Assembly: GCA_944367045.1 (NCBI GenBank)
Contig: CALVWI010000003.1
Span: forward strand, 55,311-119,310
Direction of reading: 5' to 3'
DNA length: 64,000 nucleotides
Source of the DNA: an uncultured Clostridia bacterium
GTDB lineage: Bacteria; Bacillota; Clostridia; Christensenellales; Borkfalkiaceae
Shown here: one piece after another, positions 3,727-51,007 of the stretch
How the letters are laid out: each line of letters begins with the position of its first letter
Numbering within the stretch: position 1 is the first letter of the stretch
Made by a program: the position numbers and the translations under genes
The notes under the pieces: generated by a model
The model's input: only the letters and a program-made list of their open reading frames with translations
Database searches by the model: none
Told to the model about the DNA's origin: nothing

Positions 3727-4910
3727 CCATGAAAAAATGCCTCATCCTGCTGCTTCTGTTGTTTCTCTTCCTTCCCGTATTTAGGGGAGAGGGGAGGGTG
3801 GCCTCTGCCGCCGAGAGCGATGATGCTGAACAGACCGCCGAGGAAGAACTTCAGGAAAATATATCCGAACTTTTGAATGAGCTTGACCTTACGGAGTTAC
3901 AGGAATACCTTGATACGCTCACGGAGTTTCATGGAATTTCTTTAAAGGACAAGCTCAAGGGGCTCATCGACGGCGATCTCTCCCTTGATTATGGCTCTTT
4001 GGGAGAAGCCGTTCTCTCCACTTTCTTGGATGAGATTTCCGTACTTTTGCCTGCATTTGCCATCATTTTGGCGGCGAGCCTGCTCTGCGGCGTCCTGAAC
4101 TCTGCGAAAAGCGGCTTTTTGCATAGTACTATGTCAGACATAATCGGCTTTGTTGCCTATCTTTCGGTGGGTGCGGTCGTGCTGTCCTGTCTCATCACGG
4201 TGCTTTCGTCCTGCTTTACGGCCATCGAGGCATTGGGTACGCAGATGGAGCTCGTCTATCCCATTCTCCTGACGCTCATGGCGGCGAGCGGGGGAAGCGT
4301 CTCTGCGGCCATCTTCCGCCCTGCCGTTACTTTTTTGAGCGGTGGTATCTTGAAATTGTTCACCGTCGTCGTTCTGCCCGTTTCGGTCGCCGTCCTTGTC
4401 CTCGGGTTCGTCGGAAACCTCTCGGGGGAGGTGAGAACGGAGAAACTTGGCGACTTCTTCAAGAGCATCTGTCGCTGGCTCATCGGGCTCTCGCTGGGGC
4501 TCTTCGGGCTCTTCCTCACCGTGCAGGGCATCGCCGCCGCCCAGTACGACGGCATCTCGCTCCGCACCGTCAAGTACGTCATCTCGGGCTCTGTGCCCGT
4601 CGTCGGTGGGTTTCTATCGGGAAGCGTCGATCTCGTCCTTGCGGGGAGTGCCCTCATCAAGAACGCGCTCGGCTCCTTCTCCGTGCTGCTGCTCGCGGCG
4701 GTCGTCTTGAAACCCTTACTTCTGCTCGCGGCGATGCAGCTCTTTCTTCGCATTTCGGCGGCTGCGACCGAGCCTGTCGGCGGCAAGATCCCTGCACTTC
4801 TTTCCCGCCTCGCGGGGGACATGGGGTACTTCACCGCCTCGCTGCTCTCCGTCGCGTTCCTCTACTTTTTGACGCTGCTCTTGCTCGTATGCAGTTCGGG
4901 GGTGCTCTGA
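3723..4910 (+). CDS. spoIIIAE: Stage III sporulation protein AE, carrying an in-frame palindromic element
   Basis: Polytopic membrane protein of the SpoIIIA channel, 395 residues, with an N-terminal signal-like helix (CLILLLLLFLFLPVF), an acidic soluble segment, and several membrane helices. The start at 3723 forms ATGA with the spoIIIAD stop; ATG 3729 is an alternative. Residues 133-140 read LHSTMSDI and are encoded by a dispersed palindromic repeat (4118-4145) that also occurs in dxs and in the flavoprotein at 49763-51007. The peptide falls just before a membrane helix (IIGFVAYLSVGAVVL). The frame is intact, so the protein is probably functional. Confidence 0.92.
   Translation: MTMKKCLILLLLLFLFLPVFRGEGRVASAAESDDAEQTAEEELQENISELLNELDLTELQEYLDTLTEFHGISLKDKLKGLIDGDLSLDYGSLGEAVLSTFLDEISVLLPAFAIILAASLLCGVLNSAKSGFLHSTMSDIIGFVAYLSVGAVVLSCLITVLSSCFTAIEALGTQMELVYPILLTLMAASGGSVSAAIFRPAVTFLSGGILKLFTVVVLPVSVAVLVLGFVGNLSGEVRTEKLGDFFKSICRWLIGLSLGLFGLFLTVQGIAAAQYDGISLRTVKYVISGSVPVVGGFLSGSVDLVLAGSALIKNALGSFSVLLLAAVVLKPLLLLAAMQLFLRISAAATEPVGGKIPALLSRLAGDMGYFTASLLSVAFLYFLTLLLLVCSSGVL
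4118..4145 (+). repeat. Palindromic element copy 1, inside spoIIIAE
   Basis: TTTGCATAGTACTATG followed by TCA and GACATAAT. The 12-bp CATAGTACTATG is a perfect palindrome, and TACTATGTC and GACATAATC form a second near-palindrome around one A. Read in the spoIIIAE frame it encodes LHSTMSDI. The other two frames on this strand contain TAG stops. Confidence 0.9.
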
Positions 4911-5383
4911 TGCAGGCCTACATTCTTTCCGTAGCAGGCGCGGTGCTGCTCTCCGCCGTCGTCTCCATCCTCGTGCCGGACGGCAAGCTCGGCCCGCTCA
5001 TTCGCGGCATGACCAAGCTCATCACGCTCATTTTGCTCGTCTCGCCCGTTATCTCGCTCTTCCGCGGCGGCGATTTCACTTTCGACGAGACCGCTTTTCG
5101 GGAGGATACTGCCTATCTCGCGGCCTCGGCGGAACGGGCGGAGGAGAGCGATGAGCGCGCCGTCGAAACTTGGCTTGAAAGCGAGTACGGCATCCTCGCC
5201 GAGGCGGACGTCGACCTTGCGGAGGACGGCAGCTATTCGGCAAAAAGCGTCACGGTGCGTGTCTCGGACTTCGGAATATACGACGGAGAAAAGCATATAG
5301 ATATATCGTTGCAAATCGAGGAGATGCTCGAAAAGCGCTTCGGCTGCGGAGCGGAAGTGCTTGCCGCGGAAGAGGACGAATGA
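4910..5383 (+). CDS. spoIIIAF: Stage III sporulation protein AF
   Basis: Component of the SpoIIIA complex. ATG 4910 shares a base with the spoIIIAE stop, giving 157 residues; an earlier ATG at 4889 lies within spoIIIAE. Two N-terminal membrane helices (AYILSVAGAVLLSAVVSILV and LITLILLVSPVISLF) precede a soluble C-terminal domain (VRVSDFGIYDGEKHIDI), as in the family. Confidence 0.88.
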   Translation: MQAYILSVAGAVLLSAVVSILVPDGKLGPLIRGMTKLITLILLVSPVISLFRGGDFTFDETAFREDTAYLAASAERAEESDERAVETWLESEYGILAEADVDLAEDGSYSAKSVTVRVSDFGIYDGEKHIDISLQIEEMLEKRFGCGAEVLAAEEDE

Positions 5384-5392
5384 GGAGGCCGC

Positions 5393-5740
5393 ATGAAAAG
5401 TCTCAGAAAGCTCTTTGAAAACAGGACGGCCCGCATCATCCTCGTCTGCGTCCTGGCGCTCGTCCTGCTCATCGCCATCTATGAGGTCTTCTTTGCCTCG
5501 GAGAGCACCGCGTCCTCTTACGACGAAACGGAGGCGGAGGCGCGCATCTCGACCATGCTCGAGCGGGTGGAGGGCATCGATGAGGCCTCGGTGATGATTG
5601 TCGAGGAGGAAGGGGTGACGGTCTCCTGCATCGTCGTCTACCGCGGGGAGGACAGTATCCTCTCACGCATGCGCATTCTCGACATCACGTCCTCGGCGCT
5701 CTCTATCCCTAAGGAAAAAGTGCAGGTGTACCTCTCATAA
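5393..5740 (+). CDS. spoIIIAG: Stage III sporulation protein AG, short form
   Basis: Forms the large ring of the feeding-tube channel in Bacillus. One N-terminal membrane helix (IILVCVLALVLLIAIY) is followed by a ring-building domain (TMLERVEGIDEASVMI ... SVSCIVVYRGEDS-like segment). Only 115 residues, against about 200-230 in Bacillus; the linker between helix and ring domain is much reduced. Good ribosome-binding site GAGGAGG-like just upstream. Family assignment rests on position and on the globular domain. Confidence 0.85.
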   Translation: MKSLRKLFENRTARIILVCVLALVLLIAIYEVFFASESTASSYDETEAEARISTMLERVEGIDEASVMIVEEEGVTVSCIVVYRGEDSILSRMRILDITSSALSIPKEKVQVYLS

Positions 5741-5767
5741 CGGAAATCATTTTGAAGGAGATAGAAA

Positions 5768-6253
5768 ATGTCAAACACCAAAAAGATCGCCATCATGTCG
5801 ACCCTTGTCCTGCTGCTTGCCGTGACGGCCGTGTTCAACTTCGTGCTTGCGGGCACGCCTGCGGATGCGGCGGCAGACGGCACGGCGCAGGAGGACTACT
5901 TCACGAGCTTCCGAGAGGAGCGCGTCGCGACGCGCAACGAGGAATTTTTACAGCTCGACAGCGTCATCGCGGCCTATGCTGCGGATTCCGCCGAATACAC
6001 CGAGGCCGTCGAGCAAAAACAGCGTATGGTGGAGGTGATGGAGACCGAGCTCGTCGTCGAGACGATGGTAAAGACTTTGGGCTTTACGGATGCCGTCGTT
6101 GCCATCGGGGCGGAGTCGGACAATATCAATATCTTTGTCAATTCGAGCGAACTGACGACGGAGAACGTGACGCAGATCTTCTCTATCATCGAGGATGAAC
6201 TGGGTATCCGCAACGGAAATATCGTCATCATGCCCATTTATGCGGAAAGCTGA
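5768..6253 (+). CDS. spoIIIAH: Stage III sporulation protein AH
   Basis: Mother-cell membrane protein whose extracellular YscJ/FliF-like domain pairs with SpoIIQ from the forespore. 161 residues: N-terminal membrane helix (IMSTLVLLLAVTAVFNFVLA), a charged helical stretch rich in Glu, then the ring-building domain (MVKTLGFTDAVVAIG ... VTQIFSIIEDELGI). Preceded by AAGGAGATAG as ribosome-binding site. Last gene of the spoIIIA operon. Confidence 0.9.
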   Translation: MSNTKKIAIMSTLVLLLAVTAVFNFVLAGTPADAAADGTAQEDYFTSFREERVATRNEEFLQLDSVIAAYAADSAEYTEAVEQKQRMVEVMETELVVETMVKTLGFTDAVVAIGAESDNINIFVNSSELTTENVTQIFSIIEDELGIRNGNIVIMPIYAES

Positions 6254-6284
6254 AAAAAATCGCCGTAAAAATACGGAAAGATAG

Positions 6285-6313
6285 TGGTAAAATGCGAAAA
6301 GATGTGCTATAAT
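6285..6313 (+). promoter_or_regulatory. Probable SigmaA promoter for the Asp23-nusB operon
   Basis: TATAAT at 6308-6313 with a weak -35 (TGGTAA, 6285-6290) at 17 bp. Lies in the 98-base gap after spoIIIAH and gives housekeeping expression of the genes that follow. Confidence 0.55.
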
Positions 6314-6351
6314 ACAGGAAAAGAGTATGGAACCTCCAAGGAGGACGTATT

Positions 6352-6729
6352 ATGGCAAGCATCAGATATAATCCCAACGGGCAGAAGGGCCGTATCTCGT
6401 ATAATTCGGATATCGTGAGCGGCATCATCGCGCTCAGCCTGCAGGAGACGGAGGGCATCGAGCTCGTCCCCTCCAAGAGCAAGGGCATCAAGGTCAACTT
6501 CGAAAAGGAGGGCATCTTTGCGGACATCTCCGTCATCGCGCACTACGGGTACAGCGTGCCCGAGCTCGCGTTCGCCATCCAGCAGACCGTCAAGCAGATG
6601 GTCGAATCCATGACGAAGTACCGCATCGCCAAGGTGGATGTCCACATCCAGAGCGTCGTCTTCCCCGAGCCGACGCCGCCCGCTCCGCCCGTCGTTGAGA
6701 ACCCCGAGCAAGAAAATCACAAAGCATAA
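6352..6729 (+). CDS. Asp23/Gls24 family protein (YqhY-like)
   Basis: 125-residue member of the Asp23/Gls24 family (YNSDIVSGIIALSLQETEGIEL, then VPELAFAIQQTVKQMV). In Bacillus the homologue yqhY sits between accC and nusB and is linked to control of acetyl-CoA carboxylase. Here it keeps the place before nusB but accB and accC are absent. Strong ribosome-binding site AAGGAGG. The proline-rich C-terminus (PEPTPPAPPVVENP) is low complexity. Confidence 0.88.
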   Translation: MASIRYNPNGQKGRISYNSDIVSGIIALSLQETEGIELVPSKSKGIKVNFEKEGIFADISVIAHYGYSVPELAFAIQQTVKQMVESMTKYRIAKVDVHIQSVVFPEPTPPAPPVVENPEQENHKA

Positions 6730-6735
6730 AGGGCC

Positions 6736-6760
6736 GCCCCGTCTGCACTGCGGACGGGGC
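6736..6760 (+). other. GC-rich hairpin between Asp23 gene and nusB
   Basis: Perfect eight-base arms GCCCCGTC/GACGGGGC with a nine-base loop. No run of T follows, so it is more likely an mRNA stabiliser or partial attenuator than a terminator. Confidence 0.5.
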
Positions 6761-6780
6761 TGTTCCGCAAGAGGAGATAC

Positions 6781-7173
6781 ATGAGAAGCCAAGCGAGAGA
6801 GGCGGCATTCAAGCTCGTCTTTGCCGATGAATTCGGCAGCGACACGGACGCACGGTTTGAAGCGCAGATCTATCACAAAGAGGGCCTCAACGAGGAGGAC
6901 CGCGCGTTCGCCCACAAGTTGGTGGGGCTCGTGAAGGAACATAAGGAAGAACTTTTACATGTGCTCGACGAAAAGGTCGAGCGCTTTGCGCAGTACCGCA
7001 TCTATACCGCAGACAGGGCAATCCTCCTTCTTGCGCTCGCGGAGATCAAGTATGTGGACGACGTCCCGCCCGTGGTCTCAGTGAGTGAAGCCGCCGGCCT
7101 TGCGCGCAAGTATTCCACGGAGAATTCGGCAAGCTTTGTCAACGGCGTGCTGGGAGGGGTCATCAACCAATGA
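6781..7173 (+). CDS. nusB: Transcription antitermination protein NusB
   Basis: RNA-binding all-helical factor of rRNA antitermination complexes. 130 residues, normal size; starts MRSQAREAAFKLVFA and contains the conserved DRAILLLALAEI and VVSVSEAAGLARKYS segments and a C-terminal FVNGVLGG. Its stop overlaps the folD start (ATGA). Confidence 0.95.
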   Translation: MRSQAREAAFKLVFADEFGSDTDARFEAQIYHKEGLNEEDRAFAHKLVGLVKEHKEELLHVLDEKVERFAQYRIYTADRAILLLALAEIKYVDDVPPVVSVSEAAGLARKYSTENSASFVNGVLGGVINQ

Positions 7174-8884: not shown

Positions 8885-8886
8885 AT

Positions 8887-10626
8887 ATGAGAGATATCAC
8901 GAATGGGGAGCTCAAGAACGCTTCCCTTTCTCAATTAAATGACATTTGCAGGGAGCTCAGAGAAGAGATCCTCGCGGCCGTCTCCGAGTGCGGCGGGCAC
9001 CTGTCCTCCAATTTGGGGGCTGTGGAGCTCACCGTCGCCCTGCACCGCGTCTTTGACTTCCCCAAGGATAAGCTCGTCTTTGACGTCGGGCATCAGTGCT
9101 ATGCGCACAAACTCCTCTCGGGGAGGGCCGCCGCGTTCCGCACGCTGCGTCAGGAGGGCGGCATCTCAGGGTTTCCCAAGCGCACGGAGAGCGAGTACGA
9201 CAGCTACGATACGGGGCACGCGGGCACGGCCATTTCGGCGGCGCTCGGCCTTGCGAAGGCGCGCGATCTGAAGGGGGAGGGCGGCTATGTCATCGCCCTC
9301 GTCGGCGACGGTTCCTTCAACAACGGCCTCATCTACGAGGCTCTCAACAGCCTGAAAATTCTCAACACGCACATCCTCATCGTGCTCAACGACAACGGCA
9401 TGTCCATCTCCGAGACGGTCGGGAGCATGTCGGGCATTCTCAAGGAGATCAAATCGGCGTCGGACGGCGCGGATGTTCCCGTCGAGGATTCGAAGGACGA
9501 TATCCGCCTCTTTGAGCGGTTCGGGCTCACTTACATGGGTGTTGTCAACGGCCACGATGTGGGCGAGCTGCTCACCGCCGTCGGAGAGGCAAAAGAAGCC
9601 TTAAAAGAGGGGAGCGTTCTCCTGCACGTCCACACGCGCAAGGGGTACGGCTACTCGTTTGCAGAGCGCGCTCCCACCGAGACGCACGGCGTGGGCGCAC
9701 AGAGCGGACATGAATATTCCGCGGCTTTGGGGGAGGAACTCACCGCCCTCGCCGAAAAGGACAGCCGCGTCGTCGCCGTGACGGCCGCCATGACAGACAG
9801 CCTCGGCCTTCGCGGGTTCTTTACAGAGTTTCCCGAGCGAGCGTATGACGTCGGCATCTGCGAGGAACACGCCGCCGTGCTCTCGGCCTCTCTTGCGGCA
9901 GGGGGAATACGCCCGTACTTTGCCATCTATTCGACGTTTCTGCAGCGCGCTTACGACGAGGTCATTCACGACATCTGCGGACAAAATTTGCCCGTCGTCA
10001 TCTGCCTAGACCGCGCCGGCATCACGGGAAGGGACGGGGAGACGCATCAGGGCGTGTTCGATCTCTCGTATCTTTCGCCCATTCCCAACCTCACCATTGC
10101 CGTTCCCAAGGATATTTCCGAGTTTCGCGCCATGCTGCGGGAAAGTCTTAAAATGAGCGGGCCGCTCGTCATTCGCTATCCGCGCGAGGGTTCGGAGGGG
10201 GCTGAACTGCCCGAAAATGGCATCGAGATTGGGAAATTTGAGGTTTTGCATAGTACTATGTCAGACATAGTATTGCTTGCGGCGGGGGAACGTTGCCTCT
10301 CGCTCGCCCGAAAAGTCTTACATAGAGCCAATGCGGAGGGCATTGACTTCACACTCGTCAACGCCCGCTTCGTAAAGCCGCTCGACGAGAAGCTGCTCTC
10401 GTCGCTCCCGCAAAGGACGGTCATTACCCTCGAGGACAACGTTCTCACGGGCGGCCTCGGGGACGCCGTCGCGCGGTTCTACCGCAATTCCGGGAAGCAC
10501 ATTTACGCCTTCGGGTACCGCGATGAGTTCATTCCGCATGGGGCGGTCTCCGATCTCATGGAGGAATACGGGCTGAGTGAAGAGGCAATTCTTGATTGCG
10601 TGAGGGAGCACTATGCGCGCCGATAA
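8887..10626 (+). CDS. dxs: 1-deoxy-D-xylulose-5-phosphate synthase with in-frame palindromic element
   Basis: First enzyme of the MEP pathway, thiamine-diphosphate dependent. The ThDP motif GDGSFNNGLIYEALN, the catalytic-domain GICEEHAAVLSASLAAGG and DRAGITGRDGETHQGVFD are all present. 579 residues, shorter than the usual 620 or so. Residues 454-462 read LHSTMSDIV and come from the dispersed palindromic element at 10245-10274; this is where the C-terminal domain normally has a variable loop followed by a beta strand (VLLAAG). The reading frame is preserved. The 3' end overlaps tlyA by 14 bases. Confidence 0.95.
   Translation: MRDITNGELKNASLSQLNDICRELREEILAAVSECGGHLSSNLGAVELTVALHRVFDFPKDKLVFDVGHQCYAHKLLSGRAAAFRTLRQEGGISGFPKRTESEYDSYDTGHAGTAISAALGLAKARDLKGEGGYVIALVGDGSFNNGLIYEALNSLKILNTHILIVLNDNGMSISETVGSMSGILKEIKSASDGADVPVEDSKDDIRLFERFGLTYMGVVNGHDVGELLTAVGEAKEALKEGSVLLHVHTRKGYGYSFAERAPTETHGVGAQSGHEYSAALGEELTALAEKDSRVVAVTAAMTDSLGLRGFFTEFPERAYDVGICEEHAAVLSASLAAGGIRPYFAIYSTFLQRAYDEVIHDICGQNLPVVICLDRAGITGRDGETHQGVFDLSYLSPIPNLTIAVPKDISEFRAMLRESLKMSGPLVIRYPREGSEGAELPENGIEIGKFEVLHSTMSDIVLLAAGERCLSLARKVLHRANAEGIDFTLVNARFVKPLDEKLLSSLPQRTVITLEDNVLTGGLGDAVARFYRNSGKHIYAFGYRDEFIPHGAVSDLMEEYGLSEEAILDCVREHYARR
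10245..10274 (+). repeat. Palindromic element copy 2, inside dxs
   Basis: TTTGCATAGTACTATG, TCA, GACATAGTAT. TACTATGTC and GACATAGTA are perfect inverted arms around one A. Same orientation and frame as in spoIIIAE, giving LHSTMSDIV. Confidence 0.9.
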
Positions 10627-11386: not shown

Positions 11387-11487
11387 AATTTCGTGCATAT
11401 TTTCATTGTTTTGGGCGGATGATCTCGTTTTTCTCGGTCAAAGTTGTGTAAAAAATGTAAAAACATTCGCAAGTTTCCCTGAATCTC

Positions 11488-15571: not shown

Positions 15572-16746
15572 ATAAATTGCGGACGCTTTCACAAACTGTT
15601 GGCATGAAACGGAAATGGACGATATTTGCGTGTGCGGCGGTGCTCGCGTGCGTCGGGAATATAATGTGCCTCGGCAATGCGGCGGGCGCGGAGCAGGTCA
15701 AGGCCGCCTATGTGTGTGAGGCGGAGAGCGGGACCGTCGTCACGGCGGAGAATGAGACGGAGCATCTCCCCATTGCAAGTATGTGCAAGGTGATGACGCT
15801 CCTCCTCGCCTTCGAGGCGGTGGACGCAGGCGAGCTCTCCCTTTCAGAGGAGATCGTCGTGAGTGACCACGCAGCGGGAATGGGTGGTTCGCAGGTCTTT
15901 TTGGACGAGGGCCTTGCTTATCCCGCAGGCGACCTTCTCAAGAGCATTGCGGTGTGTTCGGCGAACGATTCCTGCGTCGCCATCTCCGAACGGCTTGCGG
16001 GCAGCGAGGAGGCGTTCGTCGACCGCATGAACGAGCGGGTGCGTGAACTCGGGGCGGCGGATACGCTGTTCGCAAATTGCACCGGCCTTCCGCGGGAGCC
16101 GCAGTACTCGTGCGCGAGGGACGTCGCCCTCATGATGCGCGAGCTCATCAAGCACGAGCAGTTCTTCTCGTATGCGGGCGTGCGGCTCGAGGACTTCCAT
16201 CACCCCGATGGCAGAGTGACGACGATGACCAACACCAACAAGCTCTTAAACAAGCTCAACGGCTGCGACGGCGGCAAGACGGGCTTTACGCAGGAAGCGG
16301 GCTTCTGTCTCGCTGCGACCTGCAAGCGCGGTGACACCCGTCTCGTGTGTGTCGTCATCGGCGCGGAGAGTTCGGACGCGCGCTTCGAAAGTGTCACGCG
16401 GCTTCTCAATGAGACCTTTGCGAGCCACGAGCGGCGCATTGTCGCGGCGGCGGGGGAGGCGGTCGGCACCGTTCCCGTCAAGGGGAGCGTCGTGAAGGAA
16501 GCGGAAGTTGTACCCGAACGCTCGCTCGGCGTCTTTGTCAAAAAAGGCGAGGAAGTGGACGTAAGGACGGAACTCGTTCTGCCTGCTTGTCTCAAGGCGC
16601 CCGTTTCAATGGGGGAGAAAACGGGGGAGATCGTGCTTTTCCGAAACGGGGTCGAGATCGACCGCTGTGCGCTCGTCTCTTTGGCTGAAATTCCTCGCTA
16701 TTCGTACGGTGAGGCCTTCAAAGAGAGCGCAAGATTGTGGAATTGA
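15568..16746 (+). CDS. D-alanyl-D-alanine carboxypeptidase (DacF/PBP5 type, S11)
   Basis: Trims pentapeptides in peptidoglycan, here probably spore cortex given the neighbour. GTG 15568 overlaps the spoIVB stop and has GGGGGAG upstream; ATG 15604 is the alternative. 392 residues: signal peptide, SMCK (SxxK nucleophile motif), SAND (SxN), KTG (GCDGGKTGFTQEAGF), then a C-terminal PBP5-like beta domain. A second, shorter paralogue lies at 41621-42481. Confidence 0.92.
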   Translation: MNKLRTLSQTVGMKRKWTIFACAAVLACVGNIMCLGNAAGAEQVKAAYVCEAESGTVVTAENETEHLPIASMCKVMTLLLAFEAVDAGELSLSEEIVVSDHAAGMGGSQVFLDEGLAYPAGDLLKSIAVCSANDSCVAISERLAGSEEAFVDRMNERVRELGAADTLFANCTGLPREPQYSCARDVALMMRELIKHEQFFSYAGVRLEDFHHPDGRVTTMTNTNKLLNKLNGCDGGKTGFTQEAGFCLAATCKRGDTRLVCVVIGAESSDARFESVTRLLNETFASHERRIVAAAGEAVGTVPVKGSVVKEAEVVPERSLGVFVKKGEEVDVRTELVLPACLKAPVSMGEKTGEIVLFRNGVEIDRCALVSLAEIPRYSYGEAFKESARLWN

Positions 16747-16750
16747 CGGC

Positions 16751-16780
16751 TTTGCATAGTACTATGCCAGACATAATATA
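16751..16780 (+). repeat. Palindromic element copy 3, intergenic after the carboxypeptidase gene
   Basis: TTTGCATAGTACTATG, CCA, GACATAATATA. It differs from the copy at 39829-39858 by one base (C for T) over 30 bases. Four bases beyond the stop codon of the upstream gene. Confidence 0.9.
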
Positions 16781-16817
16781 TGATTTTCGTTCATAATGTC
16801 ATAAATTTTAAGAAAAG

Positions 16818-16845
16818 ACCCGCGGGAAAGACCTGCGGGTTTTTC
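16818..16845 (+). terminator. Rho-independent terminator upstream of lysA
   Basis: Nine-pair stem ACCCGCGGG/CCTGCGGGT (one G-U) with AAAGA loop and TTTTCT tail. Ends the recN-spoIVB-carboxypeptidase unit; the lysA promoter begins at its T-run. Confidence 0.85.
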
Positions 16846-36936: not shown

Positions 36937-36975
36937 GAAATATGGATACTATGTCACGCATAGTATCCATATTTC
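36937..36975 (+). repeat. Palindromic element copy 4, symmetric form after the amylase gene
   Basis: Perfect 17-base arms GAAATATGGATACTATG and CATAGTATCCATATTTC separated by TCACG. It begins one base after the stop codon of the GH13 gene. The left half carries GGATACTATG in place of GCATAGTACTATG. No T-run follows, but the hairpin could end or protect the glycogen mRNA. Confidence 0.9.
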
Positions 36976-38604: not shown

Positions 38605-39818
38605 ATCAATCGAAGGAACGTGTTTTTGTAATACAGCCAATTGAGAGCGATAACTATCGTGTACTTCAGGAGGAGGCTGTTTCGCTCATTGAAAGCGCCA
38701 ATGCCGATTATGCGGGTACTGTCTATCAGAAGATCCGAGAGATCAATCCTGCGACTTATATCGGTGAAGGCAAGGTCGAGGAGATCCGCGAGATGCTTGA
38801 AGGTCTCGACGTCACCGTCCTCTTCAACGGGGAGCTCTCCCCTTCTCAGACGCTCAATCTTTCGGCGGCGCTTGAGGGAAGAAAGGTCATTGACCGTACG
38901 ACGCTCATCCTCGACATCTTCGCGCTGCGCGCCGAGAGCAGCGAGGGAAAAATTCAGGTCGAGCTCGCTCAGCTCAAGTACCTCTACCCGCGACTTCGTG
39001 GTAAGGGTGAAGCACTGTCACGTCTCGGAGGCGGGATCGGGACGCGCGGCCCCGGTGAGACGCAGCTGGAAACTGACCGCCGTCACATCCGTGCTCGCAT
39101 CCATGCTTTGGAAAGCAAACTCGACGACCTGCAGCAGCGCCGCACCATGCTTGCGGAGCGCAGAAAAAAAGACAAGGTGCTCACGATTGCCCTTGTCGGT
39201 TACACAAATACGGGAAAATCTACCCTTCTCAACGCCATGACGGGCGCAGATGTCCTCGTGAAGGACGCCCTCTTTGCGACGCTCGATCCCACTTCCCGCC
39301 TCTTTACCATTGAGGACGTGCCTTTCTTGATGATCGATACCGTCGGATTCCTGCAAAATTTGCCGCACCACCTCATCGAGGCGTTCAAATCGACGCTGGA
39401 GAGTGCGCTCTGGTGCGATTTAGCATTGATCGTCTGCAATGCAGCGGGAAAATATGAGCTCGAGAAGCAGACGACTTTGGAGACGCTTCGCGGAATGGGA
39501 TTTTCTGCCCCCTATCTCATCGTCTACAATCAGTGCGATAAGCTCACAGATCTTGACACACTTCCGCATGACGGCATTGCCATTTCGGCAAAGTATGGCA
39601 TGGGATTGGATGCTCTTCGCGCAAAGATTTTTGAACTTCTCGAGGAAAATTTTGTCCGATGCAAGCTGAAGATTCCCTATGCGGCTTTTTCGGAGTACGC
39701 TGCCATTCGAAAACTTTTGACGGAACGCTCCGTCTCTTATACCGATGACGGCATGGAAGTGGATGCGATCGTCCCTGCCATCCATGCGTCAAAAGTGCAA
39801 AAATTGATTGTAAAGTGA
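38601..39818 (+). CDS. hflX: GTPase HflX
   Basis: Ribosome-associated GTPase that splits stalled 70S particles. 405 residues: N-terminal HflX domain (NPATYIGEGKVEEIREM, LAQLKYLYPRLRG), GIGTRGPGETQLE, coiled coil, then G domain with GYTNTGKSTLLNAMTG, DTVGF and NQCDK. Starts within the stop of the recombinase. Codon usage is visibly less GC-rich than in the glycogen genes. Confidence 0.94.
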   Translation: MNQSKERVFVIQPIESDNYRVLQEEAVSLIESANADYAGTVYQKIREINPATYIGEGKVEEIREMLEGLDVTVLFNGELSPSQTLNLSAALEGRKVIDRTTLILDIFALRAESSEGKIQVELAQLKYLYPRLRGKGEALSRLGGGIGTRGPGETQLETDRRHIRARIHALESKLDDLQQRRTMLAERRKKDKVLTIALVGYTNTGKSTLLNAMTGADVLVKDALFATLDPTSRLFTIEDVPFLMIDTVGFLQNLPHHLIEAFKSTLESALWCDLALIVCNAAGKYELEKQTTLETLRGMGFSAPYLIVYNQCDKLTDLDTLPHDGIAISAKYGMGLDALRAKIFELLEENFVRCKLKIPYAAFSEYAAIRKLLTERSVSYTDDGMEVDAIVPAIHASKVQKLIVK

Positions 39819-39828
39819 GTGGATAGCG

Positions 39829-39858
39829 TATATTATGTCTGACATAGTACTATGCAAA
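39829..39858 (-). repeat. Palindromic element copy 5, intergenic between convergent hflX and the Cys-rich gene
   Basis: On the minus strand it reads TTTGCATAGTACTATG, TCA, GACATAATATA, identical to copy 3 except for one base. It begins 11 bases after the hflX stop and ends 11 bases before the stop of the convergent small gene. Confidence 0.9.
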
Positions 39859-39869
39859 CCATTCATAAA

Positions 39870-40055
39870 TCAATTTTCGTGGTAATCTTTCGGGTCTGTG
39901 TATACCCTATCGATCTTGATCGAGGCAAAATCTTTGATATCGAGACATTTCCCGCAATTGTCGCAGATCTTATTGGGATCGAGGTCGCAGATCTCGCACT
40001 CCATGCAATTGTCGCAGTCCTTCGTTTCATCCAAAATACATTTGATTCGTTCCAT
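39870..40055 (-). CDS. Small Cys-rich protein
   Basis: 61 residues starting MERIKCILDETKDCD, preceded by AAAGGTGA; a longer frame to 40103 lacks such a site. Eight Cys fall in CDNCMECEICDLD and CDNCGKCLD-type pairs, which suggests zinc or iron-sulphur binding. Similar short proteins seem to occur in many Clostridia (from memory); function unknown. Divergent from lexA with about 140 bases between starts, so it may share control by the SOS box in between. Confidence 0.75.
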   Translation of the reverse strand: MERIKCILDETKDCDNCMECEICDLDPNKICDNCGKCLDIKDFASIKIDRVYTDPKDYHEN

Positions 40056-40198: not shown

Positions 40199-40798
40199 AT
40201 GGTCGATCAGAGCAAGCTCAACGATGTTCTTTCCTACGTCAATAAGTTCAATGAAGAGAACGGATTCCCCCCTACCGTCCGCGATATCTGTTCTGCGCTC
40301 GGCATCAAGTCGACGGCGACGGCGTACAGCTATATCAATCGCTTGCGGGAAGCCGGATTTCTTCACAAGGCTGACAGGAAGAAGCGCGCCGTTTCGGTCG
40401 TTGGTTCGGATACCATCAAGGTGCCTCTGGTCGGTACCGTTACGGCAGGCCAGCCCATTCTTGCGGTCGAGAACTTCGAGCAGTTCTATACCCTTCCCGC
40501 TGCCGAATTTCATGGCGAGGACCTGTTTTTGCTGCGTGTCCGCGGCGAAAGTATGATCGAAGCAGGCATCTTTGACGGTGATAAGGTCGTCGTGCGAAAG
40601 CAGGACGAGGCTGAGAACGGCGATATCGTGGTTGCGCTTTTTGATGACGGCATCGAAGAGGGCGCGACGGTCAAACGATTTTTCCTTCGTGACGGTAAGT
40701 ACATTCTTCACCCCGAAAACAGTTCGATGTCCGACTTCGTGCTCGACAATGTGACCATTCTCGGCAAGGTCATCGGCCTGCTCCGCAGCTTCTCTTGA
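40199..40798 (+). CDS. lexA: LexA repressor
   Basis: SOS repressor, 199 residues from ATG 40199 (MVDQSKLNDVLSYVNKF); the frame upstream includes the promoter. N-terminal winged helix (VRDICSALGIKSTATAYSYINRL), Ala-Gly self-cleavage site in GTVTAGQPILA, catalytic Ser in RGESMIEAGI and catalytic Lys in ATVKRFFL. Probably autoregulated through the box at 40130-40143. Confidence 0.95.
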   Translation: MVDQSKLNDVLSYVNKFNEENGFPPTVRDICSALGIKSTATAYSYINRLREAGFLHKADRKKRAVSVVGSDTIKVPLVGTVTAGQPILAVENFEQFYTLPAAEFHGEDLFLLRVRGESMIEAGIFDGDKVVVRKQDEAENGDIVVALFDDGIEEGATVKRFFLRDGKYILHPENSSMSDFVLDNVTILGKVIGLLRSFS

Positions 40799-43340: not shown

Positions 43341-43370
43341 CCATTATGCGTGTCTTGCGGAAAAATATGA
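43341..43370 (-). promoter_or_regulatory. Possible sporulation promoter of the DUF2953-ytfJ operon
   Basis: Minus strand TCATATT (43370-43364), 15 bp, CATAATGG (43348-43341), a partial SigmaE/F-like match only four bases from the ATG. Tentative. Confidence 0.3.
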
Positions 43371-43388
43371 GAGACGGTTTCGACACAT

Positions 43389-43416
43389 CAAAAAAGACGC
43401 CCCCAAAGGGAGCGCC
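43389..43416 (-). terminator. Rho-independent terminator of the scpAB operon
   Basis: Minus strand GGCGCTCCC/GGGGGCGTC stem (two G-U pairs), TTT loop, six or more T. It separates scpB from the sporulation gene set. Confidence 0.82.
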
Positions 43417-43430
43417 TATGGAAATCATTG

Positions 43431-44916: not shown

Positions 44917-44920
44917 AACG

Positions 44921-45628: not shown

Positions 45629-45634
45629 GATGAT

Positions 45635-45663
45635 ATTATATCGGAATTGCCTTGAAAAATCAA
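45635..45663 (-). promoter_or_regulatory. SigmaA promoter six bases from the M50 gene ATG
   Basis: Minus strand TTGATT (45663-45658), 17 bp, TATAAT (45640-45635), then ATCATC and ATG 45628. No ribosome-binding site fits. Confidence 0.8.
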
Positions 45664-45764
45664 CCGATTGACAAAGCGGGATGTAAACTCGCACACAAAA
45701 TTCACTTTCTCGTCAGAAATCGTCGTCCTCGCCTTATTCCCCCGATCGCCCCCTCTCGCCGCAA

Positions 45765-45799
45765 TAAAAAAAACGCTGCGGCGAAATGCCGCAGCGTTT
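45765..45799 (-). terminator. Rho-independent terminator of ispH-rpsA
   Basis: Twelve-pair stem AAACGCTGCGGC/GCCGCAGCGTTT with five-base loop and a T-run on the minus strand. Confidence 0.93.
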
Positions 45800-45809
45800 A
45801 AAAATTCAC

Positions 45810-47936
45810 TTACTTGTTCTCTTCTTCGCCGTCGAGATGAAGGAGCTCTGCGATGGAAGCGCCGCCGTAGCCGCCTTCCTTCCACTCTCTGTACTCTTCC
45901 TCTTCGCCCTCGGGAGCGTTGAAGTTCTTCCTGCCGCCCTTCTTACCCTTGCCGCGGCCGTTCTCTCTGTCGCCGCGCTCAGGACGGTTCTCGGAACGGT
46001 AGTCCTGCTCGGGCTTGGGCTGGAGTGCCTTGATGGAGAGCGTGATGCGCTTCTCTGCAGGGTTGAAGGCGAGGATCTTCGCGTCCACTTCCTCCCCGAT
46101 GGAGAGCACGGACGTGGGATTGTCGAGCCACTCGTGCGAGATCTGGGAGACATGGACGAGGCCGTCGATGCCCTTCTCGAGCTCCACGAATGCGCCGTAG
46201 GAGACGATGCGGACGACCTTGCCGTGGACGATGTCGCCCTCGTGATACTTCTCTGCCGCAAGATCCCAAGGCTGAGGCTGAAGCTGCTTGTAGCCGATGG
46301 AGACCTTCTTCTTCTCGCGGTCGACGTTGAGCACCTTGAACTGATAGCGCTTGCCGATCTCGAGCACATCCGTGACGTTCTTGACGCCCGTCCATGCGAG
46401 GTCGGAGATGTGAGCGAGGCAGTCGAACCCGTTGACGGAGACGAATGCACCGAAGTTGGTCACGCGCTCCACCTTGCCTTCGACGACGTCGCCGACGTGG
46501 ATAGAATCGAAGAATGCCTCTTCTTTCGCGGCCTTGGCAGCCTCGCGTGCTTCCTTCTCTGCTTCAAGGATGACGCGCTGGGATGCGATGATCTCCTTTC
46601 TGCGCTCCTTTCTGATCTCAAGGAGCTTCAGACGAAGCTTCTTGCCGACATACTTCTCAAGGTTGCGCACATAACCGGTGCGGATCTCCCTTGCAGGAAC
46701 GAAAACGGGATAGGTGCCGAGCTCAGCCGTGAGCCCGCCCTTGTTGAAGCCCGTGCAGGTGACGGTGAATTCCTTGCCGTCCTCGATCTCTTTGAGCATC
46801 TCCTCCTCTTCGCGGAGCTTCTTCACCATCTTCTGGGACAGCTTCACACGAGGGGATACTTCCATGACGATGACGTCGATCTCTTCGCCGACCTTTGCCG
46901 CATACTCTTCGCGGCTATATGTTTCGCAGTCAAGCTCTTCTTTCGGGAGCAAAATCTCCAGTTTGCCCGAAGCGGACACATAGACCCCTTCGTCCGTAGC
47001 GGATACGATCTTGACAGTGATCAGCTGACCTTTCTTGTACCGCTCCTCTTTGCCCATCTCCTCAACGACATCCTGCATTGTCGTTGCCTGAACTTCCGCG
47101 TTGCTTTCTTCCATCTTAAAAAGAACCTCCTGAGTTTGCCAATCGGGAGTACTTGCTCCCGCAATGACGCCTACCCTATTAAAAAATTTAATTTTCTCAT
47201 ACTCGAACGCCTCCGCGTTCTGCAGCCAATAGACATGCCTGCAGTTCTTGGTTGCGATCTCGTATAATTTCCCGGTGTTGCTGCTGTTTTTCCCGCCGAT
47301 GACGAGAACAGCCTCAGAGCGGCGGGCGATTTCTTGTGCTTCACGCTGCCGCCATACAGTAGTATAACAAATCGTGTGAAAAATCTCAACTGTTTTTTGA
47401 CACACTTTGCGAAGATTTTCGCACGTTTCCGAAAAACTTTGCTCCGAAAAGGTGGTCTGTGCCACAACGGAGACCTCTTTTTCTGCCAAAATGCTGAAAT
47501 CATCGTCGGGAGAAGAGAAAACGTACGCCTCGCCCCCATCTTTGACCCAGCCGATGAGCCCGACCGTCTCGGGGTGCTCCGCGTGCCCGATGATGACGAT
47601 CGTCCGTCCCTTTTCGCTCTCGCTTTCAACGAGGCGCTGCGAGCGCCGCACGAACGCACAGGTACAGTCGACGACGCGGATGTGTCGCCGCTCACATTCG
47701 AGGAAGGTTCCCTTCCCCACGCCGTGCGAGCGGATGAGCAGCGTCGCCCCCTCGGGAACTTCTTCAACGCTTTCCACCGTGGGGATGCCGCGCGAACGGA
47801 TGCGCTCGACGACATCGGGGTTATGGATGAGCTCGCCGAGGATATAGGTATTCTCGGGCTCCACGGCAAGAGCCGTGTCCACCGCCTTTCTCACGCCCGC
47901 GCAGAAGCCGCAGTATTTTCCGAGCAGCACCTGCAT
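45810..47936 (-). CDS. IspH-ribosomal protein S1 fusion
   Basis: 708 residues. Residues 1 to about 285 are HMB-PP reductase, the last MEP-pathway enzyme, with the three Fe-S cysteines in KYCGFCAGV, DCTCAF and RCR/KNCRH-region plus GELIHNPDV, RSHGVGKG, QTTFSEQ and NSSNTGK. From about 300 follow four S1 RNA-binding domains (KKGQLITVKIVSATDEG, GKEFTVTCTGFNKGG, VGDVVEGKVERVTNFGAF, EGDIVHGKVVRIVSYGAF) and an Arg/Gly/Lys-rich tail. Such IspH-S1 fusions are known in Clostridia. Last gene of the chorismate mutase-Cmk, plsC operon. Confidence 0.95.
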   Translation of the reverse strand: MQVLLGKYCGFCAGVRKAVDTALAVEPENTYILGELIHNPDVVERIRSRGIPTVESVEEVPEGATLLIRSHGVGKGTFLECERRHIRVVDCTCAFVRRSQRLVESESEKGRTIVIIGHAEHPETVGLIGWVKDGGEAYVFSSPDDDFSILAEKEVSVVAQTTFSEQSFSETCENLRKVCQKTVEIFHTICYTTVWRQREAQEIARRSEAVLVIGGKNSSNTGKLYEIATKNCRHVYWLQNAEAFEYEKIKFFNRVGVIAGASTPDWQTQEVLFKMEESNAEVQATTMQDVVEEMGKEERYKKGQLITVKIVSATDEGVYVSASGKLEILLPKEELDCETYSREEYAAKVGEEIDVIVMEVSPRVKLSQKMVKKLREEEEMLKEIEDGKEFTVTCTGFNKGGLTAELGTYPVFVPAREIRTGYVRNLEKYVGKKLRLKLLEIRKERRKEIIASQRVILEAEKEAREAAKAAKEEAFFDSIHVGDVVEGKVERVTNFGAFVSVNGFDCLAHISDLAWTGVKNVTDVLEIGKRYQFKVLNVDREKKKVSIGYKQLQPQPWDLAAEKYHEGDIVHGKVVRIVSYGAFVELEKGIDGLVHVSQISHEWLDNPTSVLSIGEEVDAKILAFNPAEKRITLSIKALQPKPEQDYRSENRPERGDRENGRGKGKKGGRKNFNAPEGEEEEYREWKEGGYGGASIAELLHLDGEEENK

Positions 47937-47939
47937 CGT

Positions 47940-48692
47940 TTATTTCCTCTTGTGTTTCTTGGCCTTCTTGGCGGCCTGTTCCTTGCGGAACCCGTCGCGC
48001 ATCTCGTAGAGCTTGTTCTTGATCTTCTCTTCTGCCGCCTCGTAGTCCTCGGGGGTGAGCTTGCGGCCGTAAAATTCGGAAAGCTCCATCGGCTCGCCGA
48101 ATACGACGTGCGTCTTTTTGAAGAGCTTTGGCCTGTTGCAGATGACGAAGGGAATGACGGGCGTCTTGGTTTTGATGGCAAGCAGTGCGGACCCCCCGCG
48201 GAAGGGTAGGAACTCGTCACTGTCCGTCTTGTTGCGCGTGCCTTCGGGGAACATACTGATCTTCTCCCCGTTCTTGAGGACGCGCATGGAGTCCATCAAG
48301 GTGTGCACGTCGGAGCCGTCGCGCATCGCGCCGATGACCCCCACCTTCTTTGCGACGGGCCCCAAAACAGGCGCGCGCATGATGGAGTCCTTGGCGAGAT
48401 AATGCAGGCCGTCCTTCGTCGTATGGGCGGGATAGAATACGTCCCACAGGCAGTAGTGGTTGCCGACATAGATATATGGCCCGGGGCCGACCTTTTTATA
48501 CCCGTACAGCTTGAACGGATATAAGATCGCGTGGATGGGATAGAAGAAAAAGCGCAGGACGTCCATGAGGCGGATGCGGTGATAGCCGTCCTTTTGGGCG
48601 GGGAACAGCCGCACGCTCTCCTGTTTCTTGCTCTTTTTCTCTTTTTTTGCCTTGACGGGCTTTCCTTCCGCAGAAGAGAGGTTTTCTTCCAT
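47940..48692 (-). CDS. plsC: 1-acyl-sn-glycerol-3-phosphate acyltransferase
   Basis: Phospholipid synthesis, second acylation. 250 residues: GNHYCLWD carries the His-x4-Asp catalytic motif, FPEGTRNK the substrate motif. N-terminal and C-terminal tails are Lys-rich (VKAKKEKKSKKQES, KKAKKHKRK). Its start touches the stop of the preceding cmk fusion (TGATG-type), and it is three bases from ispH-rpsA. Confidence 0.92.
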   Translation of the reverse strand: MEENLSSAEGKPVKAKKEKKSKKQESVRLFPAQKDGYHRIRLMDVLRFFFYPIHAILYPFKLYGYKKVGPGPYIYVGNHYCLWDVFYPAHTTKDGLHYLAKDSIMRAPVLGPVAKKVGVIGAMRDGSDVHTLMDSMRVLKNGEKISMFPEGTRNKTDSDEFLPFRGGSALLAIKTKTPVIPFVICNRPKLFKKTHVVFGEPMELSEFYGRKLTPEDYEAAEEKIKNKLYEMRDGFRKEQAAKKAKKHKRK

Positions 48693-49699
48693 CAGATCTT
48701 CTCCTGGATCCTGCGCTTCAGCTCGGCGAGGACCTCCTCGGGCGTCATGTGAGAGGTGTCGATGAGCACGGCGTCCTCCGCCTTCTTGAGCGGCGCGAGA
48801 GCGCGGGAGGAATCCTGCCTGTCGCGGCGGACGATCTCCTCCTCGAGCTCCTTTTTATCCACTTTATAGCCCTTCGCGGTGAGCTCGTCGTAGCGTCGCT
48901 GAGCACGCACGGCGGGGTCTGCCGTGAGGAAGAACTTGAAGTCCGCCTCGGGCAGCACGAAGGTGCCGATGTCCCTGCCGTCGAGCACACAGCTCATCTT
49001 ATCTGCGATCTCCCGCTGCTTTTCCACCATCTTGAGGCGGACGGCGGGATACTGCGACACCGTGGAGGCTGCCATGGAGACCTCGGGCTCGCGGATGCGC
49101 TCGGAGACATCCTCCCCGTCGAGGACGGTCTTCTGCACGCCGTCTTCATATTTTATCTCGAGGGCGAGATCGCGCATACAGTCGATGACGGCGGTCTCGT
49201 CGGAGATGTCCGTGCCCGTCTTGAGCGCCTTGAGCGCACAGGCGCGGTACATGGCTCCCGTATCCAGATAGAGGATGTTCATGTCCTTGGCGAGGGCCTT
49301 AGCCATCGTCGATTTTCCGCTGCCGGCAGGCCCGTCGATGGCGATGTTGATCTTGGAGGCGATGTCCTTGCGAAGGACGCGTGCCCCGCGCAGGTACACG
49401 TGGTGCGGCGTGATGTTCTTTTCGACGAAGATCATCACGCGGATGCACAGGGGAAGCCCCCCGTCGATGTCAGGCTCCTGCGCAGAGAAGAGCGGGCTCG
49501 TAGCATACCCCGCCTCCCGCGCCGCCTTGGCGGGATAATAGGAATGGATATCGGACGTGCTGGAAAAGACGATACTCAGGATCTCATCGGGATGGAGGGA
49601 GTTGCGGCTCACCGTCTGATCGATGAGCTCCTTCACGGCCTTTCTGATCTCGTCCGCATCGTCATGCACGATGGTCGTCGCGCCGCGGATCACTGTCAT
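48692..49699 (-). CDS. Chorismate mutase (AroH type)-cytidylate kinase fusion
   Basis: 335 residues. Residues 1 to about 112 match the AroH chorismate mutase fold of Bacillus: VIRGATTI with the catalytic Arg, SSTSDIHSYYPAKAAREAG, QEPDIDGGLPLCIRVM with the active-site Glu, Cys and Arg, and VYLRGARVLR. From about 117 a complete CMP kinase follows: IDGPAGSGKSTMAKALAK, YLDTGAMYRA, DGRDIGTFV, RRDRQDSSRA. The linker is only a few residues, so it looks like fusion of two adjacent genes. Both active sites appear intact. Head of the plsC, ispH-rpsA operon. Not a fusion I can place with certainty. Confidence 0.92.
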   Translation of the reverse strand: MTVIRGATTIVHDDADEIRKAVKELIDQTVSRNSLHPDEILSIVFSSTSDIHSYYPAKAAREAGYATSPLFSAQEPDIDGGLPLCIRVMIFVEKNITPHHVYLRGARVLRKDIASKINIAIDGPAGSGKSTMAKALAKDMNILYLDTGAMYRACALKALKTGTDISDETAVIDCMRDLALEIKYEDGVQKTVLDGEDVSERIREPEVSMAASTVSQYPAVRLKMVEKQREIADKMSCVLDGRDIGTFVLPEADFKFFLTADPAVRAQRRYDELTAKGYKVDKKELEEEIVRRDRQDSSRALAPLKKAEDAVLIDTSHMTPEEVLAELKRRIQEKI

Positions 49700-49732
49700 A
49701 ATTTTTCCTCACAGATTCATTGGTATGCTTCC

Positions 49733-49761
49733 ATTATAAAGGATAGCGCCCGTAAAGTCAA
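49733..49761 (-). promoter_or_regulatory. SigmaA promoter of the chorismate mutase-Cmk operon
   Basis: Minus strand TTGACT (49761-49756), 17 bp, TATAAT (49738-49733); 33-base leader with GAGGAA before the ATG. Confidence 0.85.
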
Positions 49762-49762
49762 A

Positions 49763-51007
49763 TCATTCGTTCAAATTTCCGTTCTCATGAGCGGCGGCGC
49801 GTCCCGCAGTCCAGCCCGTCGAGAAGGCGATCTGCAGATTGAACCCGCCCGTGAAGGCGTCGACGTCGAGTACCTCGCCCGCAAAATATACGTCCTTTTC
49901 AAGCTTGCTCTCCATCGTCTTAGGGGAGACCTCCTTGAGATCCACCCCGCCTGAGGTCACGACAGCCTCGGAAAAGCTGCGAAGGGAGACGGGCTCGACG
50001 GGGAAATTTTTGAGCACTTTTACGAGGCCTGCGCGCTCCTCTCTCGTCACGGCGTTCGCCTGTTTCGTGGGAGAGATGTTTGCTGCATTCAGGACGGGGA
50101 TACACAGGGCGGCGGGCAAGAGGCCGCGCATGACGTTCTTCATTTGCTCATTCTTGCGCTCGGTGAGATCGCGCACGAGGCGGGCGTTGAGCGTCTCCGT
50201 GTCGAGCGCGGGCTTGAAATCGATGAAGAGTTCGATCTCCTTTAAGGGAAGGCGGTTGATGAGCGCGGAGAGCGTTAATACGAGCGGCCCGCTGATACCG
50301 TAGTGCGTCAGGAGCATCTCGCCCTGCTCGGAGAAGATGACCTTCCCTCCGCGCTTTGCGAAGAGACAGACGTTCTTTAAGGAGACGCCCTGCAGCTTGG
50401 AAAAATCGCCCTTGCAGTTGATCCCGACGAGGGACGGCACGCAGGGCACGATCTTGTGACCGAGCTCCTTTGCAAAGTGCAGCCCGTCTCCCGTGGAGCC
50501 CGTCGAAGGGTATGAGAGCCCGCCCGTCGCAATGATGACGGCATGGCAGGAATAGGTGGCTTTATCGGATACTATGTCACGCATAGTACTATGCAAAACG
50601 CCGATTTCCTTCACATATTCGTTCAAATGGATGCAAACCCCCGCCGAAAGGCAGGCTCTTTCCAACATTTTGGTGACGTCGCTCGCATGGTCGGAGACGG
50701 GAAACACCCTGTTCCCCCGCTCCACCTTGACGGGAAGAGAGAAGCGTTCGCACAGCTCCATCATCCTTTCGGGCGGGAACGCCCAGACGGCGCCCGTCAG
50801 AAATTTGCCGCCGTGAACGACGTTCCCCAAAAATTCATCGGGCGGGCAGTCGTTGGTGAGATTGCACCTGCCCTTCCCCGTGATGTAGATCTTCTTTCCA
50901 AGTTTTTCGTTTCTTTCTAAAAGCGTCACCTCGGCGCCCTCACTCGCAGCCGCATAGGCCGCCATGAGCCCCGCTGCGCCGCCGCCGATGACCACGACCT
51001 TTCTCAT
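49763..51007 (-). CDS. FAD-dependent oxidoreductase, HI0933/BaiN family, with in-frame palindromic element
   Basis: 414 residues. FAD-binding GGGAAGLMAAYAAASEGAEV at the N-terminus, KLGKKIYITGKGRCNLTN (family hallmark), ATGGLSYPSTGSTGDG, and FAGEVLDVDAFTGGFNLQ near the C-terminus. Substrate is unknown for most members. Residues 138-146 read LHSTMRDIV and are encoded by a copy of the palindromic element (50565-50597); the following VSDKATYSCHAVIIATGG restores the family pattern. Own promoter upstream; sits directly before the cmk-operon promoter. Confidence 0.92.
   Translation of the reverse strand: MRKVVVIGGGAAGLMAAYAAASEGAEVTLLERNEKLGKKIYITGKGRCNLTNDCPPDEFLGNVVHGGKFLTGAVWAFPPERMMELCERFSLPVKVERGNRVFPVSDHASDVTKMLERACLSAGVCIHLNEYVKEIGVLHSTMRDIVSDKATYSCHAVIIATGGLSYPSTGSTGDGLHFAKELGHKIVPCVPSLVGINCKGDFSKLQGVSLKNVCLFAKRGGKVIFSEQGEMLLTHYGISGPLVLTLSALINRLPLKEIELFIDFKPALDTETLNARLVRDLTERKNEQMKNVMRGLLPAALCIPVLNAANISPTKQANAVTREERAGLVKVLKNFPVEPVSLRSFSEAVVTSGGVDLKEVSPKTMESKLEKDVYFAGEVLDVDAFTGGFNLQIAFSTGWTAGRAAAHENGNLNE
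50565..50597 (-). repeat. Palindromic element copy 6, inside the BaiN-type gene
   Basis: On the minus strand TTTGCATAGTACTATG, CGT, GACATAGTATCCG. The spacer is CGT instead of TCA, so the encoded peptide is LHSTMRDIVS. The GACATAGTATCC half matches copy 4. Confidence 0.9.

Follow-up and report, generated by a model that had tools for sequence, protein, structure and literature searches.

Putative DNA-wrapping sites of about 150 bp, with a near-invariant core, at gene ends and inside genes of a Borkfalkiaceae bacterium

A repeated core in the window and in related genomes

In this study, we analyzed a 64,000-nucleotide stretch of DNA (hereafter the window; positions 55,311 to 119,310 of contig CALVWI010000003.1, assembly GCA_944367045.1) from an uncultured Clostridia bacterium of the family Borkfalkiaceae. 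The window carries copies of a partly palindromic element with a nearly invariant 24-bp core, CATAGTACTATG-YNW-GACATARTA, which lie inside the genes for SpoIIIAE, Dxs, and a BaiN-type flavoprotein and also behind genes (Table 1). An earlier note on this DNA had described six copies with one common core, and this description holds for five of them. The 26-mer core given there starts at 4121, 10248, and 16754 on the plus strand and at 39855 and 50594 on the minus strand, with two mismatches in the first copy and none in the other four, while 100 dinucleotide shuffles of the window produced no match. The sixth copy (36937-36975) is a 39-bp palindrome with 17-base arms and a 5-base spacer; it is devoid of the CATAGTACTATG part and shares with the others only the inner unit TACTATG-N5-CATAGTA. 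No other 12-mer is as frequent in the window as CATAGTACTATG, with 10 counts on both strands from five sites. When 232 kb from other contigs of the same genome were searched for over-represented 12-mers, it again ranked first (8 counts on both strands against 0.03 expected). The three genic copies are all in the sense orientation and in one frame, encoding LHSTM(S/R)DI, as the note had stated. Among the hosts of these copies, NCBIfam cut-offs are exceeded for Dxs and for the TIGR00275 flavoprotein, while SpoIIIAE has an E value of 1e-54, yet falls under the curated cut-off; for the TIGR00275 protein, "BaiN type" is the earlier reader's label and our own. In the D-Ala-D-Ala-carboxypeptidase-like gene, every family match is under the curated cut-offs. 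The far end of the site at 39765-39915 is 11 bp from the stop codon of a convergent plus-strand gene.

Table 1 Sites with the core and the variant palindrome in the window
Location	Extent	Core	Centre	Strand	Wing score	Window positions exceeding the score
In spoIIIAE, encoding LHSTMSDII	4061..4211	4118-4146	4136	+	0.28	0.20%
In dxs, encoding LHSTMSDIV	10188..10338	10245-10273	10263	+	0.24	0.65%
8 bp past the stop of a D-Ala-D-Ala-carboxypeptidase-like gene	16694..16844	16751-16779	16769	+	0.31	0.07%
Variant palindrome, just behind a glycoside-hydrolase-like gene	36937..36975			no own orientation	0.20/0.15 (two strands)	1.9/5.6%
15 bp past the stop of a small minus-strand ORF	39765..39915	39830-39858	39840	-	0.26	0.36%
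In the BaiN-type flavoprotein gene, encoding LHSTMRDIV	50504..50654	50569-50597	50579	-	0.32	0.06%

The genome that contains the window (G000; 1.887 Mb in 46 contigs, 93% complete) has 21 core matches at up to two mismatches, while a reversed control has none, which bears out the claim that the element is dispersed in far more copies than chance would give. A slightly shorter core raised the number to 23, and at one mismatch or fewer a shorter core was present in all 37 genomes of the window's genus and in none of 24 genomes from other families of the order. In a survey of the family that allowed two mismatches or fewer, 82 of 201 genomes, spanning 7 of 18 genera, had matches, with at most one match per genome in the genera g27 and g31. 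All 29 genomes of the window's genus in this draw matched, with 4 to 32 copies each, and genome G091 had 45 copies at the same threshold.

Helically phased A+T flanks

When the copies were aligned on the core, the A+T fraction oscillated with the helical turn on both sides, with peaks near ±17, 27, 37, 48, 58, and 69. For the 112 of 115 non-redundant copies that had full flanks, the amplitude was 0.235 in the left wing and 0.175 in the right, against a maximum of 0.038 in 200 sets of random positions from the same loci, and the best periods were 10.40 and 10.50 bp. Measured in 31-bp segments, the 10.4-bp amplitude was above all 300 random-position sets from -85 to +75; farther out it was in the null range, and at -115 and -125 it was just over the 99th percentile of the null. 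The center of symmetry of the wings lies at the middle of the core (position 14.0-14.5). The length of about 30 bp previously ascribed to the element is too short, as the phased wings extend approximately 75-85 bp on either side of the core. Averaged over the aligned copies, each copy is one unit of about 150 bp, consisting of the core and symmetric phased A/T flanks. The wings of the variant palindrome at 36937-36975 resemble those of the other sites only weakly.

The same pattern was present in each of three sets of copies: the nine coding copies (left and right amplitudes 0.240 and 0.197; null maxima 0.109 and 0.113), the 21 copies of the window's own genome (0.239 and 0.165; null 0.090 and 0.073), and 26 sites of G211, a genome of another genus (0.203 and 0.148; null 0.075 and 0.094), in which the peak positions were near-identical. 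Copies of the window's genus were gathered on the 24-bp core alone. The matrix for G211 also spanned 20 bases before and 4 bases after the core, so that its innermost left peaks are partly built in and the outer ones are not.

In the strongest test of the wings, the profile derived from G211 was used to score coding orthologues, and the mean was 0.222 for 67 core-bearing loci and -0.020 for 43 core-less loci. Mean scores for Dxs, SpoIIIAE, and BaiN were 0.256, 0.168, and 0.264 with the core (27, 27, and 13 loci) and 0.042, -0.036, and -0.025 without it (7, 22, and 14 loci, sister genera included). In this pooled test, seven intermediate loci were excluded, and the center was set on the core wherever it was recognizable. 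Scores of single loci overlap (0.03-0.40 with the core, up to 0.18 without it), and the P value of 1e-17 for the association of core and wings overstates the evidence because the loci are related by descent. In BaiN, core-bearing and core-less loci separate by wing score inside one genus. The A/T peaks contain 439 TpA steps, while 771 were predicted by column composition. Strict A-tract bending was considered and rejected, as the TpA share in the peaks (0.104) is just slightly lower than the background of the loci (0.129).

Placement relative to genes and origin within them

The 24 sites of the window's genome were set against our own gene calls. Five are in genes, all in the sense orientation, and 17 of the 19 intergenic sites, including the palindromic variant with no orientation of its own, are behind the 3' end of a same-strand gene; one is not, and one is at a locus edge. 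In relatives, with orthologous repeats kept in the counts, all 31 genic copies are sense, and the gap copies are behind a same-strand gene in 104 cases, behind an opposite-strand gene in 8, and near no gene in 6. The 115 non-redundant copies comprise 57 tandem-sense, 5 tandem-antisense, 34 convergent, 3 divergent, 9 genic sense, 2 genic antisense, and 5 edge copies, while random positions gave sense and antisense in nearly equal numbers. The 3' placement is kept in G211 (355 kb), where hand counts of matches of at least 19 bits gave 10 convergent gaps and 1 divergent gap. These comparisons place the units of the window's genus behind gene 3' ends or within genes, mostly along transcription and at fixed places. 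The host genes that we inspected had no common function that we could see.

The strong sense bias and the 3' placement in the window's genus would suit a sense-strand mRNA element, that is, a signal in the 3' untranslated region or in intercistronic RNA. However, helix-phased A/T in both flanks, where runs of A and runs of T are interchangeable, is a property of DNA, several copies are right behind an apparent terminator T-run (by eye), and no Rfam family was found at the sites of the window. The hairpin proposed in the earlier note is also imperfect: base 7, mostly C, stands opposite A in most copies, so that pair 7-21 is of the Watson-Crick type in 25% of the 115 non-redundant copies and not in the other 75%, and no consistent covariation extends beyond the core. 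We regard an mRNA element as quite improbable.

Polar replication-arrest sites (RTP/Ter-like) or promoters and operators are a further explanation of the orientation, and by eye the sites are often co-oriented along contigs. If CATAAT is taken as a -10 box, the A/T steps would be spaced like those of an UP element. The RTP family was found in none of 14 genomes, while the B. subtilis control was found; divergent gaps, where promoters would be expected, are nearly empty (3 of 115), and some copies adjoin a ribosome-binding site (by eye). Sites of either kind are very unlikely. Replichore polarity was considered and rejected: in the seven listed cases in which the gene next to the site and its surroundings disagree, the site agrees with the gene six times, although just two of these (L162 and L173) are non-palindromic by our reading. 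The G+C skew was too weak to place an origin or terminus, and a search for a dif site with a Bacillus sequence as the query found none in the window or in five contigs, the best match having 9 mismatches in 28.

Of the 41 genomes of the genus, 40 gave a match to Dxs, 39 to SpoIIIAE, and 41 to BaiN, each match being an orthologue or else a distant relative, and the best 30 loci of each were read. The codons that hold the core in the window also hold it, at three mismatches or fewer, in 27 of these 30 loci for Dxs, 27 for SpoIIIAE, and 13 for BaiN. Another 2, 2, and 3 loci are intermediate (4-7 mismatches), and 1, 1, and 14 have more mismatches. Among the 14 BaiN loci with other sequence at the place of the core, L112 and L120 differ in length and the remaining 12 do not. 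In SpoIIIAE of L088 and L094, the DNA motif is largely lost (9 and 7 mismatches) and a similar peptide is kept (LDSTMTDII and LDSSMSEIV); the motif therefore seems to occupy a permissive place. Both core and peptide are absent from the Dxs, SpoIIIAE, and BaiN loci read outside the genus (sister genera and other families), so that a recurrence of the peptide in distant orthologues, which would have counted against the interpretation in the earlier note, was not seen there. Across the core columns, SpoIIIAE outside the genus is equal in length in 20 of 22 loci, with L398 and L404 shorter, and among the six closest Dxs sequences outside the genus, L357, L359, and L362 are equal in length and the other three are longer by 1-4 residues. 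The copies in the SpoIIIAE, Dxs, and BaiN-type genes are borne in frame, which agrees with the view that the element is tolerated within coding sequence. Further genic copies are in miaA, in a frame giving LHSNMSDII, and in glmS. The claim of a single tolerated frame is mostly valid, though not strictly, since the glmS copy in the window's genome uses another frame (INIVLCQTYY). On the best reading, the peptide is a side effect of a signal in the DNA that sits where the protein can accommodate it. The units within genes arose through base changes in place. One in-frame TAA occurs inside the match in the BaiN-type genes of two relatives (L115 and L116).

The earlier note had suggested a mobile insertion similar to the Rickettsia palindromic elements (RPEs). 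RPEs are insertions. They resemble the present sites in that a repeat is read in frame in unrelated genes, and differ in that the present sites replace codons in place. A mobile palindromic element of the RPE, REP/RAYT, or MITE type, inserted in genes and at gene ends, would explain the dispersed and partly palindromic copies, the full palindromes (9 of 115 copies), and the small inverted arrays at some loci. In addition, carriers L194, L210, and L172 are longer than the non-carrier L160 at one gene start, and for this reason an origin by insertion or deletion is less well excluded between genes than within them. However, there is nearly no length change at the coding sites, the orthologous positions are conserved, and no precise empty site was seen in 452 aligned locus pairs, whose loci were picked for bearing the motif. 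A search that matched 9 of 21 genomes found no Y1 transposase in G000 or in six further carriers (G001, G030, G019, G211, G071, and G068), so the linked transposase or RAYT-like gene that had been proposed did not appear. Mobile insertion is thus largely refuted for genes, and as an overall explanation it is hardly credible.

Several observations concern the palindromic copies and the gene start. The full or nearly full palindromes are in L144, L153, L175, L040, L236, L147, L167, L169, and L195, and the outer arms of some palindromic copies differ yet still pair (TTAGC/GCTAA, TTATC/GATAA, and TTTC/GAAA). Arrays resembling TACTATG-N5-CATAGTA in both orientations are right behind a full copy in L009 (1990-2126; C1 39389-39525) and L010 (2007-2088; C1 121506-121587). 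The ATG of the core is the start codon of a downstream gene, by eye similar to purB, in L194 (2489), L210 (6714), and L172 (2404), in which the added length is upstream of the start and none is in the coding part.

In-place evolution in permissive codons, together with the flanking A/T tracts, might also be expected of a DNA uptake sequence accumulated by uptake bias, and Haemophilus uptake sequences have A/T tracts. However, only 21-23 copies are present in the window's genome, the tracts number about six on each side, and the orientation strongly follows transcription; this origin has very little probability.

A candidate wrapping site and its putative binder

We propose that the phased A/T tracts bend the DNA around a protein, which would make each unit a wrapping site. 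The wrapper would most likely be DNA gyrase, acting via the C-terminal domains of GyrA, on which it wraps 120-140 bp, and the units would be strong gyrase sites that fix the removal of supercoils where genes end. A protein whose gene contains such a site would have to accept LHSTMSDI. The evidence for a wrapping site is indirect but strong, and gyrase is our best guess as the putative binder. Taken together, wrapping sites of about 150 bp selected in place, with gyrase as the likeliest wrapper, are a quite plausible but tentative interpretation.

Positive supercoils gather beyond the ends of transcription units, and it is there that gyrase works. In the window's genome, a single gene (G000:C19) encodes a GyrA, with six matches to the C-terminal repeat. 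The symmetric flanks with 10-11 bp A+T periodicity over about 130 bp expected of a strong gyrase site are present as an average over copies. TAT^G is found on both strands of the core in 112 of 115 copies on each side, partly through the construction of the search; -2A/-1T and, with quinolones, a cut before G are preferences of type IIA enzymes (PMC10117906). The sites resemble the strong gyrase sites (SGS) of phage Mu and pSC101 par and the E. coli gyrase motif in their length of about 130-150 bp, their symmetry, and their helix-phased A/T, and also in their preference for places behind transcription units; in Mu, the cut lies 20 bp past a gene end. The known gyrase motif is likewise symmetric, with a G+C periodicity of 10-11 bp, and of the published descriptions it comes closest to the present sites. 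Gyrases wrap up to 120-140 bp, and all tested gyrases show a 10-11 bp periodicity (PMC12324340); E. coli Topo IV is described as lacking periodic flanks. The right arm of the Mu site has been reported as essential (PMC10052514). Its A/T phase modulo 10.4 is 5.0, while those of the present sites are 5.7 and 6.3.

Other observations weigh against gyrase. The Mu right arm is a single sequence at the 97th percentile and about 1 bp off phase, and the left arm has a weak signal (77th percentile) whose phase, 1.7, does not agree with that of the present sites. When phage Mu was scanned with our wing profile, its annotated gyrase cut site did not stand out: even the highest value found within about 10 bp had a z of 1.2-1.7, which 4-11% of positions reach. 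The pBR322 site near 990, sought in the pSC101 record, was not picked out either; wing matches at 4806 and 4903 of pSC101 are among the best, so that pSC101 gives an ambiguous picture. Known gyrase motifs are degenerate, whereas the core is near-invariant along its 24 bp, and this suggests a binder that recognizes a specific sequence. In any one 4-nt register, the core shows only half of the symmetric type IIA base preferences (-4G/+8C, -2A/+6T, and -1T/+5A), with -2A/-1T present on one side per register and -4G/+8C absent. The symmetry center (14.0-14.5) is on or near a base and not clearly between two, as a 4-nt stagger needs. Many core-less positions equal the sites on wings alone, so the wings do not define the sites. 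The five full copies of the window are outscored at 0.06-0.65% of window positions. We know of no gyrase site that is obliged to point along a gene. In G211 (genus g32), orientation taken from tandem gaps or genes is just weakly sense (10 sense to 6 antisense). Finally, the downstream enrichment of gyrase was reported to be driven by transcription and not hard-wired in sequence (PMC6379681). The present sites also differ from strong gyrase sites in having many copies per genome, a near-invariant core, a sense orientation in the window's genus, and genic copies.

Another sequence-specific protein might instead read the 24-bp core and wrap the flanks as part of a chromosome-organizing system. 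In favor of this explanation are the near-invariance of the core, the 21-23 sites in the window's genome, a number comparable to those of matS, RacA, or SlmA sites, and the confinement of the sites to 12 contigs that make up 37% of the genome, while the simulated mean was 57% (P 0.0012, with contigs assumed to be numbered by size and missing sizes interpolated). The matS, RacA ram, and SlmA sites are likewise conserved, number in the tens, occur both within and between genes, and are unevenly spread along the chromosome. However, to our knowledge these are short palindromes without phased flanks of 150 bp, and their proteins are not known to wrap 150 bp. The search for a candidate protein covered only Y1 transposase, RTP, and GyrA. 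Such a system is possible, though rather doubtful. The contigs of G000 with sites are C1, C3, C8, C10, C12, C14, C20, C22, C25, C26, C27, and C33.

Enterobacterial BIME/REP repeats, which sit at gene 3' ends, are similar in being palindromic and intergenic and in forming arrays. The present sites differ from them in occurring also in coding sequence without insertion, in having phased wings as part of the unit, and in the lack of a RAYT among the seven carriers searched. BIME-2 is reported to be cut by gyrase (PMC6379681).

The sites are likely to be novel. In open-licence PMC papers, the CATAGTACTATG string was found only in a paper on oat markers, and none combined at least four of the five topics palindromic repeats, gyrase binding, intergenic placement, coding sequences, and 10-bp periodicity; in the Gallimonas/Borkfalkia literature of the same collection, no title on such sites was among the matches listed. 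Gene ends in part of the host's family may be marked by a new, sequence-specific system for wrapping DNA, similar to nucleosomes in length and phasing, although we incline to doubt it. If it exists, its effect on the DNA of housekeeping genes would be strong enough to mold some 150 bp with no insertion, and unrelated proteins would share a peptide owing to the packaging of their DNA. Packaging signals that dictate an eight-residue peptide in unrelated proteins would also call for caution in taking conserved peptides as a sign of protein function. As wrapping-type sites that occur naturally at discrete places throughout the genome and evolved in place, the units come with matched orthologues in which they are present or absent. 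They would thus allow a direct test of what topoisomerase or packaging sites that are hard-wired into the sequence do where genes end.

Carriage by phages was considered as well and rejected, as the 44 scattered viral matches to a short pattern were judged, without a formal test, to be due to chance. Other repeats are present in two motif-less genera of the survey (G076:C12, L448-L455; G072:C1, L438-L447); overlapping 12-mers of one example, GGTGATTCCGTTACTTCTATTGG, reach 13-18 counts in 160 kb on both strands. A small Cys-rich ORF with no NCBIfam match is encoded at 39870-40055 on the minus strand of the window, beside lexA (40199-40798). The window also contains a lysine riboswitch (59478-59651) and a tRNA (62629-62701).

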